DNA of 22,309 nt from a virus. The translations under genes were made by a program, and so were the position numbers. Below are positions 544-21,277 of the stretch, piece after piece (position 1 is the stretch's first letter; the number at the start of each line of letters is the position of its first letter). Location of the stretch: positions 1 to 22,309 of IMG/VR virus record IMGVR_UViG_3300038427_000172; one strand, written 5' to 3'. The notes under the pieces are model-generated. The model worked only from the letters and a program-made list of their open reading frames with translations. It made no database searches and was not told where the DNA came from.

Positions 544-1830
544 TTAGACCTCCTGGATTACGCGACCCTGATGGAACGTGCCACCGGGCCCGTATTTCTT
601 CACGTCCTCCCAGGTCAGGCCCTTGTTGTCAAGGCCCTTGAACCGGGCGAGGAAGGCGTCTGCGTTGGCAGGCATCGGAAGCTTTGGCTTCTCCTGGGTG
701 GAGGCCGGGACCGGGATCTGCCCGCTCTTGAGGCCCCGCTCATCAGGCTTTGCGAGCTTGTCCGCGATGGTGGTGTAGTTCGCCAGCTCGATCTCGAGTG
801 CCGCGGCCGGGATGGTCACGAGCTCGGTCTTCCGCTTCTCTGCGTCCTCCTGCTTGAGCAGGCCGGCCCTGATCTGAACCTGGACGATTGAGGCAGCGAG
901 ATCCTGCTTGCGGACCTCTTCGAGCTTTGCGGCCAGCTTCTCGGCGACCTGCTTATCAACCGAGGCCGCAACGGAGTTGTCCCCCACAGTCTGACCCACC
1001 GGGGTCCCACAGGCTTCGCAGAACTTCGCGCCGGGTCGGACAGATGCCCCACAGCCTCCGCAGGCCGCATGAAGGCCCTTACCACAGGCCGGGCAGAACT
1101 TCGCATAGGCAGGGAGCTTCTCTCCACATCCCGCGCATACCGCGTTGTGCTCCGGAGATCCCCCCCCATCTTTTCCATCAGTCGATCCTTTCCCGGCGGC
1201 GATGTTGATCGTCACGCCAGGAGCCACCGCCTCCATTCCCGGAAGGGTGGCCTGCTCTTCGGTTGGTTTGTCGGTCACAGTAGATGCTCCTTTTGAGCTC
1301 TGGAAAGGGTAGGACTTCGCTGCCATCCAGGTAAAGCGGGCCTCCGTATAGGCGGGGTCGCTGACAATGCTTGCGCTCTCGCCCCGGATCCCCCGCATCA
1401 TCCCGTCCTCCCCATGTTCGTCAGCGATACCCCAGAGGGAGACAGTTAAGGGAATCGTGCCGGATTGAATCCCCTTGACGGTCGCCGGGTCTGTGATCTT
1501 CGCTCGCTGGTAGAAGACGGTGCGGTTCTGGTCATCCTTTCCCCCGGGCATGACTTTGAGAATAGTGCCTACAACGGCCTTCTGGGAGTTGATGGCGTCG
1601 CAGTAATGCTCGCCCGGGACCCCCGGGATGACCTCCTTTCCATACGGGCAATATCGAATGGGCTTGCCCGTGAATGATGCAGCGAAGTCCGCAGCCTCTT
1701 CCTCGGGGATGCCCCACCCGTTCTTGTTGATCTTTCCCGCGGTGAAGAGAGGGCCCTCGATGAGAAGGGCATTCCCCGCGGTAGCGATCACAAATGGATG
1801 AAGGCTGCCTAAAAGGGTGAACTCCGGCAT
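544..1830 (-). CDS. Prohead protease fused to double zinc ribbon and scaffold-like coiled coil
   Basis: A 428-residue protein in the position of head maturation protease/scaffold. Residues 1-170 look like a phage prohead protease: an early GPLFTAGKINKNGWG segment, 'AKITDPATVKGIQSGTIPLTVSLWG' split around residues 110-134, and SASIVSDPAYTEARF (152-166), the usual 'S-x-V-x-x-P-A-x-x-E-A' end of this fold. Residues 232-274 hold eight cysteines as four CxxC knuckles (C232/C235, C246/C249, C257/C260, C271/C274), a textbook double zinc ribbon. Residues 290-362 are charged and helical, as in scaffold regions. The double zinc ribbon between protease and scaffold is unusual for this family. The ATG at 1830 has no Shine-Dalgarno and lies about 30 bases below a TATA box, implying a leaderless message. 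Confidence 0.75.
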   Translation of the reverse strand: MPEFTLLGSLHPFVIATAGNALLIEGPLFTAGKINKNGWGIPEEEAADFAASFTGKPIRYCPYGKEVIPGVPGEHYCDAINSQKAVVGTILKVMPGGKDDQNRTVFYQRAKITDPATVKGIQSGTIPLTVSLWGIADEHGEDGMMRGIRGESASIVSDPAYTEARFTWMAAKSYPFQSSKGASTVTDKPTEEQATLPGMEAVAPGVTINIAAGKGSTDGKDGGGSPEHNAVCAGCGEKLPAYAKFCPACGKGLHAACGGCGASVRPGAKFCEACGTPVGQTVGDNSVAASVDKQVAEKLAAKLEEVRKQDLAASIVQVQIRAGLLKQEDAEKRKTELVTIPAAALEIELANYTTIADKLAKPDERGLKSGQIPVPASTQEKPKLPMPANADAFLARFKGLDNKGLTWEDVKKYGPGGTFHQGRVIQEV

Positions 1831-1842
1831 ACGCTCAAAATA

Positions 1843-1869
1843 TACAACGCTATACTATATAAATCTAAA
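1843..1869 (-). promoter_or_regulatory. Archaeal TATA promoter (copy 1 of a 27-bp element) for the prohead protease operon
   Basis: On the minus strand this contains TTTATATA (1856-1863), a consensus-like archaeal TATA box, followed by GTATAGCG. The box centre is about 30 bases from the ATG at 1830, so transcription should begin at or a few bases before the start codon. The whole 27-bp element matches 6613-6639, upstream of the portal gene, at 25 of 27 positions, so the two head operons are probably co-regulated. Confidence 0.75.
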
Positions 1870-1875
1870 AAAGGG
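1866..1875 (-). terminator. Poly-T terminator of the RAMP unit
   Basis: After the two TAA codons that end the ribbon-helix-helix gene, the minus strand reads CCCTTTTTTAG, a T6 run directly before the TATA box of the next operon. Archaeal RNA polymerase terminates at U-rich tracts, so this is a plausible end for the unit that starts at 3374. The assignment rests on position and composition only. Confidence 0.4.
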
Positions 1876-1884
1876 AGTCGTTTA

Positions 1885-2082
1885 TTATTGTAAGTCGTAT
1901 TTGATGATGTGTTGCCGGATTGCATCTAATAGGAATGCCTCACGGGAAGCGAATCCGAACCGGGGGTCTTGGATAATGCGTTCAATTTGCCAAAGATACG
2001 CACCGGGGAGCTCTACGTAGACATATTCAGTCTTTTCGGCCCCGTTCGCGTTGATGCTGACCTGCCAGTTATGCGTCGCCAT
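1885..2082 (-). CDS. Ribbon-helix-helix DNA-binding protein
   Basis: 65 residues. A beta strand with alternating residues (YVYVELP, about 20-26) is followed by two helices (AYLWQIERII and SREAFLLDAIRQHI). This is the arrangement of MetJ/Arc/CopG repressors: 'V-x-V-x-L-P' strand, helix, turn ending in 'F-x-S-R-x-x-F', second helix. Such proteins dimerise and bind operators, often near their own promoter. It starts two bases after the stop of the RAMP-like gene and is the last gene of that unit. It could repress the unit's own promoter at 3399-3406 or the adjacent head promoter at 1856-1863. The fold call is fairly secure; the target is a guess. Confidence 0.75.
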   Translation of the reverse strand: MATHNWQVSINANGAEKTEYVYVELPGAYLWQIERIIQDPRFGFASREAFLLDAIRQHIIKYDLQ

Positions 2083-2084
2083 GG

Positions 2085-2657
2085 TTATTCCATGCTCATA
2101 ACGGCGAACTTTCCATACCGGGGGCGATAGTCCCCAAGTCCCTTCCGTTCCCCTGCGATCTCAAGGAACCTTCGGATGGCCTCATCATCGAAGTCCTTCT
2201 CGGAATACTCGATGGTGAACTTAAGTTCCCAGCTGTTGAACCGTGGCCTGCATCGGTTCACTCGGCTTCCCTTGATCCTAGCGCTTCGGAAGTCGCTGAA
2301 TCCTGCTTCCCAGAGCCCGTTCTTGGTGGTTGGTCCTGGATAGATCAGGGGGATATCATCCGGGGAGACTTTGAGCCCGGCGGTGACGGTTCTGCCCTGT
2401 TTCTCCTCCTTAGCAGCGTCCCGAATGCAGGCTTCTACATTGACCGCCGGGACCATGGGTTTACCGTCCTTATCCAGATAGAGGCCGAGCTCCCACTCGA
2501 TACGGGCGATCTGGATGTTGTCGTCGTCCGTTTTCTTCTTCCCTTTCACCGTGAGCTTTTTCAGCTCTTTTATCAGGGGATGTAATGGGTTGATCCCCTG
2601 ACTATCATGCATCAGAAGGGGGGTAATCCCCTTAATCCAAACGTCAACTTTTCTCAT
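2085..2657 (-). CDS. Lone RAMP/Cas7-like protein next to a pentanucleotide array
   Basis: 190 residues. The N-terminal strand VDVWIKGITPLLMH (4-17) and the C-terminal Gly-rich segment AGERKGLGDYRPRYGKFAV (168-186) match the general RAMP plan: a ferredoxin-like first strand with 'G-x-T/S-P-L', and a terminal G-rich loop with 'G-L-G-x-x-R-x-x-Y-G-x-F'. Between them lie KPMVPAVNVEACIRDAAK (66-83), as in the Cas7 core where an 'I/V-P-x-x-x-x-x-x-x-x-R' helix follows, and a basic block RVNRCRPRFNSWELKF (132-147). From memory, phage proteins with TPLLM, RPRF and GLGDYRP motifs occur elsewhere without an agreed function. No other Cas gene and no CRISPR repeats are present. The leader of this gene is the pentamer array at 2678-2850. 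I infer an RNA-binding subunit. The fold call comes from motifs alone, with no structure comparison. Confidence 0.6.
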   Translation of the reverse strand: MRKVDVWIKGITPLLMHDSQGINPLHPLIKELKKLTVKGKKKTDDDNIQIARIEWELGLYLDKDGKPMVPAVNVEACIRDAAKEEKQGRTVTAGLKVSPDDIPLIYPGPTTKNGLWEAGFSDFRSARIKGSRVNRCRPRFNSWELKFTIEYSEKDFDDEAIRRFLEIAGERKGLGDYRPRYGKFAVMSME

Positions 2658-2677
2658 GCTGTTTCACCTTACCTTGA

Positions 2678-2850
2678 AATCCGCGCCGAGCCACACCCTG
2701 CCCCGCCGAGCCGGACCCTACCGAGCCAGGGAATCCCTGCCACGCCAGACCTAGCCGAACCTAGCCGTGCCAAGCCCAACCGAGCCAGACCGCGGAATCC
2801 CTACCTAACCGCGCCGAACCTAGCCCAACCGAGCCTTGCGAAGCCAAGCT
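2678..2850 (-). repeat. Three-block GGYNN pentanucleotide array upstream of the RAMP-like gene
   Basis: On the minus strand GG recurs every five bases. Three in-phase blocks are visible: 2796-2835 (8 pentamers), 2732-2786 (11) and 2678-2727 (10). Each block begins GGCTC then GGT, each ends with GGATT, and every pentamer between is GGC or GGT plus two variable bases. Block spacers are 9 bases (2787-2795) and 4 bases (2728-2731). Upstream, 2836-2850 continues in phase with weaker matches. The array lies between the stop of the winged-helix gene and the start of the RAMP-like gene, in the transcribed direction, and ends about 20 bases before that ATG. Bases 2851-2873 hold nothing I recognise. 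Confidence 0.85.
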
Positions 2851-2873
2851 ACGTCCGCTCCGGGGTTGCCCCA

Positions 2874-3374
2874 TCATTGCGGTTCATCTTTCTTCTCCAG
2901 CTGCAAAGGCCGCCTCTCGGAGAGCCGGATCTTCATCGGGCCGGAGATCACCTGCTTGGACTCGAACTCCCGCATGAAGAGGGCCGCCCTGGTGCCAAGG
3001 CCCACAACATACCGGTCGAACCGCGCCCGGTCCTCTGGAGTCATCTCCTCCCGGGGAGCATACTGCGCGATCTCACAGGCCCGGAGGAGATATTCCTTTG
3101 ACTTCTTCACCCGATCATAGGATACGTCCTCGTAGGAATCCGGGTTCACCACGAGATATCCTACCCCTCGCACGTTTCTGATCATTTTTGACTTCGGGAG
3201 GAGGATTTCGTTGGCATCCGAAACGGCCTGATAATAGGTGTTTTCCTGCTGCGGGATACCGAGGATCTCCGCGATCTCGGAATGCGTATGCGTCGATCCG
3301 TAGGTCCATCCTTCCGCTACCCTGGCAAGTTCACGCGAAGGGGGGTAAAGTTTTAGCTCCGTCGGATTTTCCAT
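2874..3374 (-). CDS. Winged-helix-like protein, first gene of the RAMP unit
   Basis: 166 residues. Residues 29-78 look like a helix-turn-helix with wing: THTHSEIAEILGIPQQ, then YYQAVSDANEILL as a second helical pair, then a hairpin RNVRGVGYLVVNP. The remainder (85-130) is helical and charged, with PREEMTPEDRARFDRYV, and the tail is basic. Proteins of this build are common in phages as putative regulators of unknown target. The ATG at 3374 has no Shine-Dalgarno and lies about 29 bases below a TATA box, so this is the first gene of a separate transcript. Its stop is followed by the pentamer array. It may regulate the unit or act with the RAMP-like protein. Confidence 0.65.
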   Translation of the reverse strand: MENPTELKLYPPSRELARVAEGWTYGSTHTHSEIAEILGIPQQENTYYQAVSDANEILLPKSKMIRNVRGVGYLVVNPDSYEDVSYDRVKKSKEYLLRACEIAQYAPREEMTPEDRARFDRYVVGLGTRAALFMREFESKQVISGPMKIRLSERRPLQLEKKDEPQ

Positions 3375-3397
3375 AAATATATTTGTGTCACAGAAAC

Positions 3398-3412
3398 CTA
3401 TTTAAAGTATAT
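3398..3412 (-). promoter_or_regulatory. Archaeal TATA promoter of the RAMP unit
   Basis: The minus strand carries TTTAAATA at 3399-3406, centred about 29 bases before the ATG at 3374, with ATATAC just upstream where a BRE would sit. There is no Shine-Dalgarno, which fits a leaderless transcript. It lacks the GTATAGCG extension shared by the two head promoters, so this unit probably follows different control. Confidence 0.7.
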
Positions 3413-3433: not shown

Positions 3434-4900
3434 CTAGGCAGAGAAGAGCGGGATATCGAAGTAGTTGTCTCGCCAATCCGCGCAGAAGTCCCGGGTATCT
3501 GGGCTCACGTCCCCGGTATCGTCCGGGAGATCCCCGAAGTAGGGCGCAAGGGTGCAGCGGCAGAAGTTATGAACGGGCGGCCGGACCATATCCTCGTCAT
3601 CCAGGGCAAAGATTGTCCCGTTGAGGTCCCCACAAATCTCGCAGGTCCGCTCGTCTATGCCCGCCAGGAACTCCACGCCAGGGGCCCCGACTTCAGTATA
3701 CGAGACAATATGCGCCTGATTAAAGGATTCCATCGTGAGGGTCCGGGCCCGCTCGGTCGCCCGCCGGCTGTCGATGCCGAGGGCCTCCTGGATGCGGTTC
3801 CGGAGATCCGGGATCCCTTCCCCCCCATCGAAACCTTCCTGAAGGGTATCGGTCAGCCGGTCCTTCAGGTCGTCCGCGATGCGGTCAAAGTGGTCGACGG
3901 TGTGGAAGGTCATCCGGTCGATGAGCTTCCCGAAGTCCGCGCTGGCCCGGGTCACGGCCCCACCCACTCGCCGGCGAGGTCTCGCTCGGAGGATCATCTT
4001 GTCCGCGTGATGGGCCCCCTGGAGGACGGTCTGCGAGGTATACTGGTAGATGAGGTTCCGGAACTCTTTCCCCTGGAGGATCTTCCGATGTGCAGTGAAT
4101 CCTTTGAGCGCCTGGGCCGCGGTCGGGGCCTCCACATCCACCCCCTCGGTCATTCTCTGAAGGTTCCGCTGGAGGGCTCGGCCGAGCAGATACTCCTTGC
4201 GGTTCAGGTCGGGATCAAGGCCGTGCGGTCGCTGGACGAGCCTGCGCTTATTCGAGGCCACCAGGGGCTCCGTTTGCTCCGCTGGGGATTGGAGCCCGAT
4301 AAACCGCGCAAAAAGGGCCCTACATACCACTTGGGACTCCAGTAGATAGTCAGAGGCGGGGCCCATTACCCGCGGGTCATCGTCCGTCCAGTCCTTGAGT
4401 CTGGCGAGCGTTTGCTCGGGATGGAACTGGACGGCCTGCACGAAGTTGTCCCAAGTAAAGCCGCGGACATGGCCGAGCTCGATATCCCGGGCGAGGGGAT
4501 GGCAGTCCTTCGGGAGCCCGAAGCTCTCATCGTGCCACTCGAAGACGTGGGAGCGCGTCCCCTGGATGGAGATCTCCCGCCAGCCGTATTCATGGCTCTC
4601 CCGCTCCAGGGCCTTCCCGAGATTGAGGGCGATCATCTCGCCCCCGAAGCATACCCCCCAGAGCGGGACCCGCGCCTTTCTGCAGAAGGTGATGAGGGCC
4701 TGCTCCTTCTCAAACCAGGGCTGCCGTTCCGGGGGCTCCTTTCCCCCCATGAGGAGGACCCGATCCCCTGGGCCTGGGTGCGGGAGGTCCTCCTCATAGC
4801 CGCGGGAGATCTCCAGCGGGATCCGGGCCGCCCGCGCAAGGTCCGCGATGTAGTTGGGGCCGCCGTCCGGATCGTGGATGACACAGAGGATACAGGTCAT
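3434..4900 (-). CDS. Class I glutamine amidotransferase fused to MuF-type head morphogenesis protein
   Basis: One uninterrupted frame of 488 residues. Residues 1-200 form a class I glutamine amidotransferase with a complete triad: Cys84 in VPLWGVCFGGEM (nucleophile elbow G-x-C-x-G), and His160 and Glu162 in AVQFHPEQ. These enzymes hydrolyse glutamine and deliver ammonia to a partner. Residues about 215-455 are a phage Mu F-like minor head protein, ending in the usual DERTCEICGDLNGTIF and PPVHNFCRCTLAPYF blocks (C420, C423, H444, C447, C449), which bind metal in this family. MuF proteins connect to the portal inside the head. The gene sits directly downstream of portal, the usual place. The fusion is unusual. 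M250 could serve as an internal start for a separate MuF product, but no Shine-Dalgarno was checked there. Confidence 0.85.
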   Translation of the reverse strand: MTCILCVIHDPDGGPNYIADLARAARIPLEISRGYEEDLPHPGPGDRVLLMGGKEPPERQPWFEKEQALITFCRKARVPLWGVCFGGEMIALNLGKALERESHEYGWREISIQGTRSHVFEWHDESFGLPKDCHPLARDIELGHVRGFTWDNFVQAVQFHPEQTLARLKDWTDDDPRVMGPASDYLLESQVVCRALFARFIGLQSPAEQTEPLVASNKRRLVQRPHGLDPDLNRKEYLLGRALQRNLQRMTEGVDVEAPTAAQALKGFTAHRKILQGKEFRNLIYQYTSQTVLQGAHHADKMILRARPRRRVGGAVTRASADFGKLIDRMTFHTVDHFDRIADDLKDRLTDTLQEGFDGGEGIPDLRNRIQEALGIDSRRATERARTLTMESFNQAHIVSYTEVGAPGVEFLAGIDERTCEICGDLNGTIFALDDEDMVRPPVHNFCRCTLAPYFGDLPDDTGDVSPDTRDFCADWRDNYFDIPLFSA

Positions 4901-5099: not shown

Positions 5100-6602
5100 T
5101 TATGGCCTTTGTCCCGGGGCGGTTCCCGGCTTGACCTCCACGTTGACCGGGACCGGGGTCTTCTGGTCTTCCTGGATGGTCTGCCCCTCCTCCTTGTCAA
5201 CGGTCTCCCTGGGTGGGACATGGATCCCCACAATTTCAAGGGCCTGCCGCACGGTCAGGGCGCTCGGGTCCTGGGCGGCGACTTCCAGAAGGGTCGGGAG
5301 TTCTACGAGTGGCTGGTCGATGGGCTGCAGCTCGATCCGGATTGCCTTGGCCTCATCTTCGCTATAACCGAGGAGGATGAGGTGCTGCTGATAGATCTTC
5401 TCAAAGCCTACCTTGAGCTGGATCCGCATCGCTTCGAGGACCCGCACCGCGTCCATATCGGCTATGTAGGAGGACGCGAAGGTCGTCCCCTTGGCTTTCC
5501 CGCTGCCCGCTTCGGTCTCCAGGAGGCCGTAGGCGATATCGCGCTCCAGGGACTCCTTGAACTCGATGACTCCGGAGGCGTTCTGGAAGCCGCCCGGGAT
5601 GGCCTGGACGGTCTTCCCGATGCTGATGATATCCTCGTCGGGTTTCATGCCCTTCGCAATCTTCGCCTCCGCTGCCAGGATCTTCGCGGCCTGCTTCAGC
5701 GTGAGCTTGTCATCCAGGATCCGCTGCTTCATGAGGTCGTTGTCGATGTGGAGGCGGCCGTATCCGTATCGTCCAATGGCCTTGGAGAAGCCCCAGTTCA
5801 CATCCTCCAGCTTCTTGACCTGCTCGTCCACGAGCTCCATCAGGGAGACCCCATAAAGGCCGATGGTGTTCCGGTTGTAGATATCGCGGCATTGATGGCC
5901 GTGGTGCATGAGCCGCATGAGGGTCACGCGGCCGTTCTTCATGTAGTGGATCTCCCTCTTTGCCTGGAGCCGCTCGTTGATGATGACCTGGGTAACGCCT
6001 CCGATAATGGTTGCATACTCCCAGAGCTGCTCTTCGTTCTGGACCCCGCTCATGGGCTCCACGTCGATAGGGAGGAAGGTTGTATGGCTCATCGGCATGA
6101 AGTCAAGAGTCGTGATGCCCTCCCCGTTGCCAAAGCGCTTATCGGCGCTATTCAGGATCGGGACGCTGCCGTCTCGGGCGAGGAGCCGGCCGGCCGCGGT
6201 GAAGAAGTTCTGCATATCGAGCGCCGTGGTGAAGTCCCCCGCGTCTTGGAGGATCGATTGCTCGGCCTCCCCTTCGAGCCCCGCGCTCTTGTCAACGAAG
6301 AGCTTGAACTCCTTCCCGCGCAGGCGCAGGCCGAGCTTGACGAGCCCGACACCGATCCGGGGGTTGATCTTCTCTACCTGCTGGAAGCGGTCGTATTTGT
6401 TGAAATACGAGATTCTACGGCCACCGTAGACGTCTGTATCCAGGGCTTTGTTCTGGTAGTTCTCATTCTTCAGAAGAGGGGCGACGGGGTTTGAGGGGTT
6501 GAAGTCCGAAGTGATGAGGCCCGCGGCCAGCAGGAACTCCCGGACCTCTCCATCGGAATCCCCCCGGCCCTGCCTTTGTCTATGGAGATCCCTTGCGCGC
6601 AT
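5100..6602 (-). CDS. Portal protein
   Basis: About 500 residues, in the canonical place after the terminase genes. Supporting segments are VEKINPRIGVGLVKLGLRLRG near the N-terminus, DGSVPILNSADKRFGNG, a central stretch EIHYMKNG followed by NRNTIGLYGVSLMELV (the 'G-x-S-x-L-E/M' portal feature), long helices around LTLKQAAKILAAEAKIAKG, and a Pro-rich tail. The portal forms the dodecameric vertex ring through which DNA enters and binds terminase. Two ATGs are available, at 6608 and 6602. I chose 6602 because its distance to the TATA box (about 28 bases) matches the other promoters here. The 6608 start would add MA and would need an unusually short spacing. Confidence 0.85.
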   Translation of the reverse strand: MRARDLHRQRQGRGDSDGEVREFLLAAGLITSDFNPSNPVAPLLKNENYQNKALDTDVYGGRRISYFNKYDRFQQVEKINPRIGVGLVKLGLRLRGKEFKLFVDKSAGLEGEAEQSILQDAGDFTTALDMQNFFTAAGRLLARDGSVPILNSADKRFGNGEGITTLDFMPMSHTTFLPIDVEPMSGVQNEEQLWEYATIIGGVTQVIINERLQAKREIHYMKNGRVTLMRLMHHGHQCRDIYNRNTIGLYGVSLMELVDEQVKKLEDVNWGFSKAIGRYGYGRLHIDNDLMKQRILDDKLTLKQAAKILAAEAKIAKGMKPDEDIISIGKTVQAIPGGFQNASGVIEFKESLERDIAYGLLETEAGSGKAKGTTFASSYIADMDAVRVLEAMRIQLKVGFEKIYQQHLILLGYSEDEAKAIRIELQPIDQPLVELPTLLEVAAQDPSALTVRQALEIVGIHVPPRETVDKEEGQTIQEDQKTPVPVNVEVKPGTAPGQRP

Positions 6603-12080: not shown

Positions 12081-13538
12081 TCAGGCTCCCCCAAAGAGCC
12101 GCTTCTCGAATGCCGCAACCAGGGCCTTAAGGAAGGCGAGGATCCTCTCCCGGAGGCTGGCCGGGGGTATCGGGGTCGGAGTTGGTGCAGGGGCGACCGT
12201 GATGAGATGACCCTTGCTCCCGACCAGTGTGTTGCTCCCGGGCTCCGAAACGATGAGCTGGGTGTTGTAGGTCCCCGCCTTGACGTAGGTGTAGTCAAGG
12301 GTCGGGGTTGCCTTGAAGTCATAGACGTCCCCGTCGCCCGTGTAGAGCACCTGATGGTTGATGGACTCCCCGACGCACTCGTTGAGGAAGGTCACTTTCA
12401 GGGGTGCAATTCCCGAGCTCGGCGAGGCCGAGTAGTCGATGATTTCTGCAGGGGCCCCGCCAGCCGGGACCATCCGCTGCATGTCGTCCGCGTCAACCAG
12501 GGCATACGCGCCGGCGAAGCCTTGCGCCATGTAGTTATAGGAGAGTCGGTGAAGTTGCTGATCCGCGGTGTTGTGGGTCCCTTTGCATCCGCAGGCAGTT
12601 CCCCATGAGGAGATCGCATAGATATAGTGGTCATCGAAGCCCACCGCGCAAAGACAGTGACCCCCGACTTTGGGCCCCTTGGGATCCGGGAAGGTGCAGA
12701 AGCCATCCGTCTCGCCCATCATATCGGTGTAGTTCTCGTAGACGGTGATCCCTATGATGACCGAGCCATATTGCGCGATTGCGGCACAGAGGTCCGCTAC
12801 GTTGTCGATGGCAGCGTAGCCGGCGGCCTTGTGGTAGGGCTCCTCGTTGGAGACTGCCTGCGCGAACTGCGTGGGCGGCGAAGACCAGACGGCCATAGGG
12901 GTCCGGGAGGTAGGCCACTGCATATTTTCGCAGGAGATCCCAACCTGGACGAGTGCCTGGGCAACGTAGACCACTTCGGAGCCTTCCGGATCCGTGATCT
13001 TCCCGATGCGCCGGGAGTTCTGATACACGTCCTCGGCGCTTTTGCTCCAATCGAAGAGGTCATCGGTGATCGTTCCGTCCGCGTTCTTGACCGCGCGCCG
13101 AATACCAGCGATATCGGCCGCATTCGGTAAGTAGGGCTTCCCCTCCTTTGCGCGGTTCATCGCCTCATCGCAGTCCTTCTTATACGCGCCGCCCATCCCG
13201 CAACAGATTCCGCGGTCCGCCTGATCCCGGGATACGATGGCAGGGAGGTAGGGGAACATATAGGATGAGATGGCTATTGCGCGGGCCTTCGGAACCCACT
13301 TCAGCGGGGCCTTCCGCTTCGGATATACCCGGTCAAGCTTGAACCGGATGGCGATCTTTCCGTCCATAGTCTTCTTCAGATACTTCTTCGAGAGGAGCCG
13401 CAGGAGGTCCTCCTGGAAGGCTGTTGCCTCCTCCTTCGTGACGACACCGAGCCGGCGCTGGAGGCTCTCGATAGTGAGGCCGGGCGTCTGCGAGATTTTC
13501 AGGTGTCGAAAGATGTGTTTATGGCCTCGGTAGGTCAT
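12081..13538 (-). CDS. Papain-like cysteine protease with PKD domain, candidate archaeal lysin
   Basis: 485 residues. Residues 1-70 are helical and basic, possibly winged-helix-like or a propeptide. A papain-type (C1) domain spans about 80-350: Q106 and C112 in RDQADRGICCGM keep the Gln-to-Cys spacing of six seen in papain, His294 lies in KVGGHCLCAVGFDDH, and SSWGTACG (310-317) replaces the usual N-S-W-G, so the catalytic Asn is Ser310. Residues 365-448 are a PKD-like beta domain (ASPSSGIAPLKVTF, then GTYNTQLIV), common in methanogen surface proteins. After a Pro-rich linker comes an amphipathic basic helix (460-485). It follows a holin-like gene. I infer digestion of the host S-layer or cell envelope at lysis. 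A virion-associated entry protease is the alternative. Confidence 0.75.
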   Translation of the reverse strand: MTYRGHKHIFRHLKISQTPGLTIESLQRRLGVVTKEEATAFQEDLLRLLSKKYLKKTMDGKIAIRFKLDRVYPKRKAPLKWVPKARAIAISSYMFPYLPAIVSRDQADRGICCGMGGAYKKDCDEAMNRAKEGKPYLPNAADIAGIRRAVKNADGTITDDLFDWSKSAEDVYQNSRRIGKITDPEGSEVVYVAQALVQVGISCENMQWPTSRTPMAVWSSPPTQFAQAVSNEEPYHKAAGYAAIDNVADLCAAIAQYGSVIIGITVYENYTDMMGETDGFCTFPDPKGPKVGGHCLCAVGFDDHYIYAISSWGTACGCKGTHNTADQQLHRLSYNYMAQGFAGAYALVDADDMQRMVPAGGAPAEIIDYSASPSSGIAPLKVTFLNECVGESINHQVLYTGDGDVYDFKATPTLDYTYVKAGTYNTQLIVSEPGSNTLVGSKGHLITVAPAPTPTPIPPASLRERILAFLKALVAAFEKRLFGGA

Positions 13539-19294: not shown

Positions 19295-19513
19295 TTACAC
19301 CCGGAGGGTAGTCTGGGCTGCCCGGGCCGCGGCCTCTTCCTCATACTGACGAGTCGCATCCTTCAGGGCCGCAGAGAGGAGCGCGGGATCCTCGATACCG
19401 CCCCCCCCGACTGTGATCGAATCGAAAGGATGTGTGTAGGTAGTCCCTGTTGCATCTCCCCCGGCGGACATTTCTTTGACCCTGACCATGACAGAGACCT
19501 CGTAGTCGGGCAT
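19295..19513 (-). CDS. Small protein of unknown function
   Basis: 72 residues (begins MPDYEVSVMVRVKEMSAGG), with an N-terminal beta strand, a Thr/Gly-rich middle and a helical C-terminus with ALKDATRQYEEEAAARAA. The start overlaps the previous stop by one base (TGATG). No recognised motif. Confidence 0.6.
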   Translation of the reverse strand: MPDYEVSVMVRVKEMSAGGDATGTTYTHPFDSITVGGGGIEDPALLSAALKDATRQYEEEAAARAAQTTLRV

Positions 19514-20304
19514 CAGGTCACCTCCAGGTCTTTCGCAGTCCCCACCCAGAGGATCTTCGCATCCTTGCCACCGTGTAGCCTCCAGATCTTCCCGTCAAAG
19601 GAGGCAACTAACCCGAGTTCCCAGAGGGTGACGGCGGGTTTGAAGGGATACTCCTTTCCCGGAATCTTCTCGGTGTATTTCCATGCCTTTCTCGGAAGGA
19701 CAAAGAACGACCCGGTATAGGCCCAGACCGAGTCCCTGACCGAGTCCCAGGCCGAGTCCCTGACCGAGTCCCAGGCCGAGTCCCCGACCGAGTCCCAGAC
19801 CGAGTCCTTGACCGAGTCCCAGACCGAGTCCTTGACCGAGTCCCCGACCGAGTCCCAGACCGAGACCCCGACCGAGTCCCAGACCGAGACCCTGACCGAG
19901 TCCCAGGCCGAGTCCCTGACCGAGTCCCATTCTTTCAGGAGCTGGAGGATCTCCGGGGTGATCTCCGGTGGCTGAAGGGTAAGGGGATTCACAATGGCCT
20001 TTCTCACAAGGATCTTTTCCAGTTTCTTCAGCCATGCCTTATGCGCCCTCTCGCAGGCCCGTTTATGCGCCAGCGTCCACCACTTCGGCGTGATGTCCAT
20101 ATCAATCTTGAAGACCCATTTATCGGGCTCAAGATAGGAGCCGTTCTTGGGGGCGCTCTCGATTCGGGCAAACTCAATTATCTCCGGATCCCTGGTATCA
20201 TCCTTGTAGCCGGCGATCTTTAGGAGGTCTTCATGGGAATCGACCCCCATCTTCCAAATAACCTTCTTATCTCGCCCGATTACACAGGAAAATGCTTTAC
20301 ACAT
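19513..20304 (-). CDS. MCKAFSC-type phage protein with 17 WDSV-like tetrapeptides
   Basis: 263 residues. The ATG at 20304 has GGAGG eight bases upstream and overlaps the upstream gene by eight bases; an in-frame start at 20325 is rejected. The N-terminal 100 residues (MCKAFSCVIGRDKKVIWKMG, then VFKIDMDITPKWW) match a phage family I recall as widespread and of unknown function. Residues 126-193 are 17 tetrapeptides alternating WDSV with R/G/K-D/V-S-V/A. The C-terminus (WKYTEKIPGKEYPFKP, KIWRLHGGKD) is beta-rich. Alternating Trp and acidic/Ser residues could form a beta-solenoid or a protein-binding surface. Confidence 0.7.
   Translation of the reverse strand: MCKAFSCVIGRDKKVIWKMGVDSHEDLLKIAGYKDDTRDPEIIEFARIESAPKNGSYLEPDKWVFKIDMDITPKWWTLAHKRACERAHKAWLKKLEKILVRKAIVNPLTLQPPEITPEILQLLKEWDSVRDSAWDSVRVSVWDSVGVSVWDSVGDSVKDSVWDSVKDSVWDSVGDSAWDSVRDSAWDSVRDSVWAYTGSFFVLPRKAWKYTEKIPGKEYPFKPAVTLWELGLVASFDGKIWRLHGGKDAKILWVGTAKDLEVT
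19726..19929 (-). repeat. 12-bp tandem repeat coding the WDSV tetrapeptides
   Basis: Seventeen 12-base units, 204 bases in total, with a 24-base higher-order pattern (WDSV plus a variant unit). The variant unit changes mostly in its first codon (R, G or K) and its second (D or V). The units differ by point changes, so the repeat has aged or is under selection. Unit number could change by slippage or recombination without breaking the frame. Confidence 0.9.
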
Positions 20305-21277
20305 TTTGGAGTCCCTCCTTGCCATTCTGCATGTAGTCGTTGAACTTGTCCGCGGTGTGGAGGACCAGCTCCATCTGTTCGGCGAAGCAGAGCATGAGGG
20401 TCCCTGGCTGCCCCTTGACGAGCTCCACGGCCGCCTTCACCGCGGTCTGCCGCATGATCGAGAGGTCCGTCTTTGTGTAGTAGGGCTTTGGCTCCATCAC
20501 ATCAGAGAGGGGCCGCCCGGTCCCTGCCGCTCGGCCGGTTAGATCCTCCACTTTTCCCTGCCCAGGGGCAACGGGCCGCGGGGCCTCTGCCGGCTTCGCA
20601 GGGGGGATAGGCTTCGCTACCTCCTTGGGGGGTGCGGCCGCTGGCGGGGCTTCCTTGGGCTTCGCTGCGGGCTCCTTTTCCTTGGCTCCTTCAGGGGGCT
20701 TCTGGAGGCTCCCCTTGATCTCCTTCACCGCCTGGGCCGCGGGATCGCTTGGCTGCCCGGTCTGGGCAGCGATCTTATCGCCCTCGGTCTTCTCCCTTAA
20801 GGCCAACCTTGCGAGGGACTCGATCCGATCCGGGATACAGCTCCCAGGTTGACTTACATCCTCCAGGATCTTGCCGGCCCATACGATCCGGTCCTCGGGG
20901 TGCATGGCCTTCACGCGGTCGTAGACGGCATCCCATCGCTTCTTGATCTCCTCCGGGGTCTCCGGAGTCGCTCCCGAGAGATCCGCCTGGAAGATCTCCT
21001 TTGGTCCCGCGGGTTTCTTCTCCTCTGTGGGTTTCTGGGCTGCTGCTGGAGCCGGGGCCCCATCCGTCTTCGCGGTCCCGATCTTCTTGCCAAAGGACAT
21101 AGCCCCCTTGTCATTCTTCGATGTTGAGTATTCGAGGATATCCCCGACCATCCACCCGCTCATATATTGCTTGACTGCCGGGAGCGCGAAGAGGGTCTTG
21201 TCCTTCGTTGTGCCGTCCTTCTCTGTGACCGAGAGGACAATGTTCTGGCCTTCGATTTTCAGAATCGTTCCTTGCAT
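20297..21277 (-). CDS. Proline-rich linker protein with beta-barrel-like N-terminus
   Basis: 326 residues in three parts. Residues 1-70 (GTILKIEGQNIVLSVTEKDG and SGWMVGDILEYSTS) are beta-rich and could be an OB- or SH3-like domain. The centre is Pro/Ala/Lys-rich and probably disordered, with one helical island (EIKKRWDAVYDRVKAMHPED). The last 60 residues (KTDLSIMRQTAVKAAVELVKG then LVLHTADKFNDYMQNG) resemble the helical tail of phage single-strand-binding-type proteins. Together they suggest, but do not prove, a single-stranded DNA-binding or recombination accessory protein. A regulator with a flexible linker is the alternative. Confidence 0.6.
   Translation of the reverse strand: MQGTILKIEGQNIVLSVTEKDGTTKDKTLFALPAVKQYMSGWMVGDILEYSTSKNDKGAMSFGKKIGTAKTDGAPAPAAAQKPTEEKKPAGPKEIFQADLSGATPETPEEIKKRWDAVYDRVKAMHPEDRIVWAGKILEDVSQPGSCIPDRIESLARLALREKTEGDKIAAQTGQPSDPAAQAVKEIKGSLQKPPEGAKEKEPAAKPKEAPPAAAPPKEVAKPIPPAKPAEAPRPVAPGQGKVEDLTGRAAGTGRPLSDVMEPKPYYTKTDLSIMRQTAVKAAVELVKGQPGTLMLCFAEQMELVLHTADKFNDYMQNGKEGLQNV

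Follow-up and report, generated by a model that had tools for sequence, protein, structure and literature searches.

A probable VIPR locus with linker-joined guide tracts in the head operon of a virus with archaeal-looking promoters

We analyzed a 22,309-nucleotide (nt) stretch of viral DNA (IMG/VR record IMGVR_UViG_3300038427_000172, positions 1 to 22,309; "the window" designates this whole stretch) and found at 1885-3374, on its minus strand, a unit with the order vap, pentamer array, vipr and a gene for a ribbon-helix-helix (RHH)-like protein. About as surely as sequence can make it, this locus belongs to the Viral Interference Programmable Repeat (VIPR) systems, a kind of RNA-guided DNA recognition, possibly pre-CRISPR, which was published only months ago (preprint of April/June 2026, PMC13142463), with SUSP1 as founding phage and a further system in a P. 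fulva prophage. In VIPR, a viral RAMP protein co-purifies with RNAs of 9-16 GGY/NN pentamers; this protein, Vipr, is described as a RAMP of ~20 kDa with a single RRM, a G-loop and a thumb, and DNA is recognized by the NN letters with one skipped base, the targets being repressed (PMC13142463). The natural targets are competing phages and satellites, and the systems are cast as weapons between viruses; ribonucleoprotein formation and silencing by binding were shown experimentally for the SUSP1 and P. fulva homologues, vap1 of SUSP1 enhances interference, and Vipr stands apart from CRISPR Cas7 in the tree (PMC13142463). A literature search on VIPR terms gave no further VIPR paper among the matches listed. 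The present locus adds to this kind a member in a virus with archaeal-type promoters.

We consider it highly probable that guide RNAs from the array direct the Cas7-like protein against rival viruses, where it represses gapped DNA targets. The promoter of the unit would drive a transcript with vap, array, vipr and RHH-like gene in this order, in which each tract of 10-12 YNNGG units would provide one guide RNA (vrRNA). Vipr would line the vrRNA with one subunit per pentamer, gripping GGY and presenting the NN dinucleotides. Together, these dinucleotides would recognize a double-stranded DNA target with gaps (NN x NN x NN ...) by the published 1-nt skip rule. The bound complex would then repress the gene at the target, with the winged-helix Vap strengthening or anchoring its binding; because no nuclease is seen in the unit, the expected outcome would be silencing of a competing virus or provirus in the same host. 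A preliminary description of this DNA had suggested a ribonucleoprotein of protein and array that silences by binding without a nuclease, which matches what the homologues do (PMC13142463), and it is by analogy with these that ribonucleoprotein formation, the skip rule and repression are proposed here.

The window and the SUSP1 system (PMC13142463) have in common a small single RAMP protein of phrog_4652, GGY/NN tracts on the vipr strand, a vap gene (phrog_5926), a viral genome and no nuclease seen. They differ in that the array of the window lies between vap and vipr and has its tracts joined by 4-nt ATTC/ATTT, and in the extra RHH-like gene, the archaeal-looking promoter and the long, unplaced Vipr branch of the window. 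TIGR-Tas is reportedly another RNA-guided DNA system with an array that is carried by phage (PMC12045711).

The family of Vipr is annotated as of unknown function, and a Pfam search of the protein returned no family at E<=1. An AlphaFold2 model built on an alignment of 30 sequences (the window and viral contigs) has a predicted local distance difference test (pLDDT) score of 92.2 and a predicted template modelling score of 0.85. When it was compared to the PDB using Foldseek, all 50 listed matches were class 1 CRISPR effector chains of types III and VII, the best being 6s6b_I (type III-B Cmr, E 8.6e-7). VIA-align gave a Z of 11.5 to 6xn3_F (Csm complex), with a root-mean-square deviation of 3.2 over 152 residues, and a Z of 10.3 to 6nbt_B, titled Csm3; in a BFVD search, rank 3 was a siphovirus 'Cas system-associated RAMP superfamily protein'. 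Structure prediction and fold search thus bear out the RAMP/Cas7 fold proposed earlier for this protein, and its size and predicted fold are those of the small single RAMP protein of VIPR. G173, G182, R137 and P138 are invariant in the alignment of 30 sequences, and G169 and G175 almost so. Subunits of the Cas7 type are expected to stack along RNA.

With a class 1 effector fold at Z 11.5, Vipr could be thought of as a remnant of a reduced CRISPR-Cas effector, that is, a stray Cas7 acquired by the virus with a degenerate array. It shares with Cas7 proteins of class 1 (Csm3, Cmr4) the fold and a glycine-rich stretch near the C terminus. However, the window has neither CRISPR repeats nor a cas operon, its rhythm is of pentamers and not of 6 nt, and its setting is viral. 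No direct-repeat array was called at the locus, no CRISPR-like repeat and no further cas-like gene were seen in the unit, and the neighbours are head genes, a winged-helix protein and an RHH-like protein. Vipr moreover falls in a viral family with relatives in 129 phage records and the same array grammar, and we give a CRISPR-Cas remnant next to no credence. These relatives, phiSUSP1 among them, were found by tblastn, as were others in 6 plasmid records; the window Vipr is 31% identical to that of SUSP2. On the Bradyrhizobium japonicum plasmid CP126019.1 (L084, 2124-5564), a Vipr homologue adjoins an HNH endonuclease, with a metallophosphoesterase/AAA ATPase pair one gene away on the other side, a neighbourhood that resembles the nuclease-bearing VIPR types of the preprint (PMC13142463).

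The array lies in a non-coding stretch of 173 nt (2678-2850) between the vap and vipr genes and is composed, on the minus strand, of three YNNGG tracts of 10, 12 and 10 units joined by two 4-nt ATTC linkers (Table 1). The GGYNN units of the preliminary description are therefore present, not as one run but as three tracts whose linkers shift the register. All three lengths lie inside the published vrRNA range of 9-16 units. Allowing gaps of 0 or 4 nt between units, the longest chain comprises 30 units in the array. The minus strand as a whole has a chain of 32, and the plus strand one of 4. In shuffled sequence the maximum was 6, both for the array (1000 Markov and 1000 mononucleotide shuffles) and for the window (60 Markov shuffles); chance comes nowhere near a chain of 30 units. 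A strict array caller limited tract 1 to 2799-2838. Folding of the two linker stretches as RNA gave no notable hairpin.

Table 1. Features of the VIPR locus in the window, and sites of the minihelices described for other loci
Feature	Position	Strand	Description
TATA box	3399-3406	-	TTTAAATA; 25-32 base pairs (bp) before vap ATG at 3374; from sequence
vap	2874-3374	-	166 amino acids (aa); predicted OmpR/PhoB-like winged helix and long C-terminal helices; phrog_5926 relative, E 5.5e-5
Putative vrRNA tract 1	2799-2848	-	10 pentamers, one deviating (CTTCG); NN = TT TT AA TC TG TA TC GC TA AG
Linker ATTC	2795-2798	-	4 nt; from parse
Putative vrRNA tract 2	2735-2794	-	12 pentamers; NN = GC CT TC TG TT AC TA TC TA CT GT AG
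Linker ATTC	2731-2734	-	4 nt; from parse
Putative vrRNA tract 3	2681-2730	-	10 pentamers; NN = CT TC AG CC TC GG AG GT TC GC
Array end	2658-2680	-	ATTT CAAGG TAAGG TGAAACAGC to vipr ATG; from sequence; likely holds the ribosome-binding site of vipr
vipr	2085-2657	-	190 aa; predicted Cas7/RAMP-like protein; phrog_4652, E 2.1e-47
RHH-like gene	1885-2082	-	65 aa; phrog_38461 (no function), E 2.5e-6
T6 tract	1867-1872	-	past last stop of the unit; possible archaeal-type terminator; from sequence
tRNA-like minihelices	L004 3272, L005 4209, L007 3005, L038 3155-4354, L041 2194, L044 2137, and others		

The joint occurrence of the gene and a GGYNN array in related viruses, on which the preliminary description had staked its reading, holds. 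An alignment search retrieved 34 loci in viral contigs, 32 after the near-identical relatives of the window were set aside, and a tract was counted beside the gene if its YNNGG score was at least 6. Such tracts adjoin vipr in 29 of the 32 contigs (exceptions L020, L025 and L030) and in seven of eight GenBank phages, the exception, L006, having an imperfect array; the two sets overlap in LittleE and Trine, and some of the contigs (L033-L036) are closely related. The tracts are always on the vipr strand, never on the opposite one. Vipr has no match in 20 of the fetched loci; 18 of these (206,945 bases) are free of tracts, and the two others, L067 and L083, were fetched by the array pattern and come from contigs cut where relatives carry vipr. 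Markov shuffles, 10 for each of 42 loci, gave a mean of 0 tracts.

The place of the array is not constant in these relatives, where it may precede vipr and vap, lie between them or follow them, with up to 9 tracts. This bears on the idea of a cis-acting leader, in which Vipr (or Vap or the RHH-like protein) would bind GGYNN in the vipr mRNA or DNA for autoregulation only, with no guides being made. The arrangement in the window would suit such a leader, as its array lies within the operon, directly ahead of the vipr start, flanked by two predicted DNA-binding proteins. Nevertheless, a leader does not sit well with the shifting place and number of tracts, with NN letters that vary while the protein stays identical (see below), or with the trans action on programmed targets that is reported for homologues (PMC13142463), and we regard it as very unlikely.

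Natural variation could be followed in two further contigs, 3300038425_000058 and 3300038424_000215, in which Vipr is 100% identical. Compared to the first, with 2.9 kb shared, the array differs by 7 substitutions and a 39-nt deletion equivalent to seven units and one linker, and there are 0 differences in the ~2,740 nt outside it. Compared to the second (~10.4 kb shared), there are 8 substitutions in the array, the same 39-nt deletion and a 5-nt insertion of one unit, versus 15 substitutions in ~10,300 nt outside (Fisher p 4e-10 and 2e-10, respectively, with counts read by hand from the alignment). In matched array units the changes fall in NN, once in Y and never in GG; across the three contigs NN is variable and GGY is kept, the events behind this being few and their number modest. 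Turnover of NN beside an identical Vipr fits guides selected by changing targets, and the three contigs clearly show an array that turns over while the rest of the genome hardly changes.

The difference in copy number by whole units could also be produced by a slippage microsatellite or, alternatively, the units could be DNA-binding iterons, in either case with no RNA function. Yet the units are not mutual copies, NN being free and GGY held, and Tandem Repeats Finder makes no call at the array; the strand is always that of vipr, and the arrays of distant viruses keep the GGY grammar only. A repeat of this sort is therefore exceedingly unlikely.

Targets were sought on both strands as patterns in which one free base separates successive NN dinucleotides of a tract; by our own estimate, a pattern with 18 fixed bases should have about one chance match in viral_contigs. 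No convincing target was found, the numbers of matches being of the order estimated for chance, which is also what a cis-acting leader would give. Tract 2, with 22 fixed bases and as the one exact pattern scanned against genomes, has 0 exact matches in viral_contigs and genome_contigs, and with 3 mismatches allowed, 0 of nine related records match, for each of the tracts. These results weigh against the guide-directed mechanism proposed here, as do the position of the window Vipr in the tree, on a long branch without resolved placement, and the lack between its tracts of the structured 3' tail of the SUSP1 type, there being only 4 nt in its place. As no structured tail follows the tracts, we do not file the locus in the SUSP1 clade (type II).

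When tract 2 was shortened to 18 fixed bases (9 of 12 NNs), it gave one viral match, which does not fall in the wobble register of a long frame. For tract 3 (18 fixed bases, 9 of 10 NNs) there were matches in two contigs of proteobacterial prophages; both lie in the same homologous gene, which belongs to no known family, and are in frame with the free base at the wobble position. For tract 1, with the variants of the window and its relatives merged in one pattern, there were 7 matches, two of the same sequence, and none shares a gene with the window (tblastx, 1e-4). The best of them, at L057 7867-7896, covers 9 of 10 NNs on the coding strand, again with the free base at wobble, within a phage integrase (7139-8182; PF00589, E 2e-19), and in this reading, where the window and its relatives differ at two NNs, the changes are Y to F/L and S to T. 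An integrase would make sense as a target in a rival virus, but the closest integrases to this one are those of Pseudomonas and Synechococcus phages (~40%), and given the misfit of a bacterial-type host and the one match expected by chance, we set it aside as a lead only. In two other candidates, L061 and L062, one strand is likewise open in the wobble register; these match the merged pattern, however, and neither real variant in full. All three tracts can be free of stops in either direction with the free base at wobble. In the local loci (409 kb), the best target scores are within one unit of those obtained with shuffled unit order, the tract 3 pair excepted.

Our guess is that the host is archaeal, perhaps a methanogen; the grounds are the TATA boxes that precede vap and position 1830, together with a PKD-bearing protein. 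Proteins bearing PKD domains are a habit of methanogens. The one in the window, a large product of 12081-13538 (-), shows near its C terminus a weak match to a PKD domain (PF00801, E 0.006, below the cut-off) that serves as a hint of the host, and it has one weak match, in an uncultured phage record. TerL has distant phage relatives only, mostly from actinophages, and no relative in an alignment search of genome_contigs; the portal gave no match in the host-directed search.

The assignment of Vap rests on the phrog_5926 profile, which is external and independent of this analysis. This family is the vipr neighbour in all eight GenBank phages inspected, SUSP2 among them, and a vap hidden Markov model finds a match in 24 of the 32 Vipr contigs (L016-L047). 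The Vap model has a pLDDT of 85, with C-terminal residues 146-166 under 50, and its top Foldseek match is the DNA-binding domain of AdeR (E 0.009, prob 1.00). Its VIA matches are of moderate strength, with Z no higher than 8.2, and the three best span the helical C-terminal part only. As for the 65-aa protein, its match to the NikR model (E 0.0087) is far below the cut-off of that model and weakly suggests a small ribbon-helix-helix-like fold; this protein probably regulates the unit.

Arrays joined as in the window were searched for in viral contigs with a pattern of three units, ATTY and three units, which matched 19 contigs: two relatives of the window and 17 others. Of the latter, 16 have real arrays (L066 does not) and 14 have a Vipr match; as the contigs were fetched by array, only the Vipr matches count as independent. 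These loci (L065-L083) share with the window the tracts on 4-nt linkers, and differ from it in the order vipr-array-vap, where vap is seen, and in having up to 9 tracts. Gaps of 4 nt are present at 29 distinct junctions across the 19 loci (ATTC 9, ATTT 6, GTTT 5, nine others) and read RTTY at 20 of them, one junction per locus being biased by the search pattern and the remaining ones unbiased. The tracts hold 6-15 units, most commonly 13, and number 1 to 9 per locus. In the tree, the other linker-joined loci form two supported clades, and the window is joined to neither with support; a common origin of its Vipr with these loci has no support in the tree, yet is compatible with it.

Such junctions could mean that the three tracts and their ATTC linkers form one long guide, carried by a single filament with register shifts, a variant that is compatible with VIPR membership. 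The 29 junctions with no tail between tracts are in line with this, and the preprint names 'staggered arrays with overlapping vrRNAs' with no detail in its main text (PMC13142463). On the other hand, the tract lengths, most commonly 13 units, fit single published vrRNAs, and the number of tracts differs between loci; on balance a single long guide seems rather unlikely. We tentatively suggest that tail-less, linker-joined arrays may represent a separate mode of guide making, in which guides lie head to tail and a 4-nt signal is the sole boundary; we consider this possible, though less likely than not. In the window this would take place within one archaeal-virus mRNA, between vap and vipr, coupling the production of guides to that of Vipr, with the RHH-like protein closing the loop. 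The compact array raises the question of how guides are produced without tails, and should processing occur at the linkers, 4 nt between guides could suffice to multiplex VIPR arrays. The linker architecture may already be covered by Fig. S18 of the preprint, on staggered arrays (PMC13142463). Another packed architecture is present in L031 (2033-2387) and L047 (2074-2408), where AA joins tracts at six junctions and both arrays end in the common tail CGACCTGGGGAAGTCGTGAAACTCCCCACCA.

Many Vipr loci have a tRNA-like minihelix between tracts, those with a name being Mycobacterium and Gordonia phages (Table 1). It comprises an acceptor-like stem of 5-7 bp, a connector mostly of 10-11 nt, often with GG, and a T arm with a TTCRANY loop. 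Of 36 distinct gaps of 25-95 nt between tracts, 18 contain a minihelix, and 200 rounds of shuffled gaps produced none; shuffles that kept the loop motif, present in 23 gaps, gave a mean of 0.025 and at most 1. Of 41 minihelices in the loci, 36 adjoin a tract. They may be vrRNA tails or signals for processing by RNase P/RNase Z; the word 'tRNA' is absent from the main text of the preprint (PMC13142463).

The three open reading frames of the unit are all open on the minus strand, and the one-direction, three-gene layout with a TATA box and a T6 end given in the preliminary description is present in full. We take TTTAAATA to be the TATA box of a leaderless archaeal-type start, by the usual grammar of such promoters. 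A second TATA-like stretch, TTTATATA (1856-1863), lies ahead of the ATG at 1830, so that the 544-1830 gene can restart on its own. Scans of the window gave 1 sigma-70 promoter site versus 1.1 in shuffles, 6 bacterial-type terminators versus 1.9, none of the 6 at the T6 tract, and no Rfam family at the gathering threshold.

The unit is flanked by the MuF gene (3434-4900; PF04233, E 5e-15) and the 544-1830 gene. It had been described as inserted between MuF and a prohead protease; MuF and the neighbouring gene are there, but the protease label has no family match behind it. The same head operon exists without the VIPR unit in a relative, L050 (TerL 69%, portal 75%), where MuF ends at 6130 and the next head gene, the counterpart of 544-1830, starts at 6198 with no unit gene between them, and in the 11.4 kb examined of which matches to vap, vipr and the RHH-like gene are all absent.

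The MuF head protein of the window (minus strand) also carries a class I glutamine amidotransferase domain in its N-terminal part (PF00117, E 2.2e-8, residues 46-166) and measures 488 aa, versus 287 aa for its relative in L050. The head-operon gene at 544-1830 (-) encodes a double zinc ribbon (PF12773, E 9e-10). In the near-identical contig 3300038424_000215 (L049), ~173 nt (5503-5675) that are absent from the window are present between portal and MuF. Finally, a 12-bp repeat of 17.3 copies at 19722-19929 of the window codes for a WDSV-type peptide repeat in the 19513-20325 protein.

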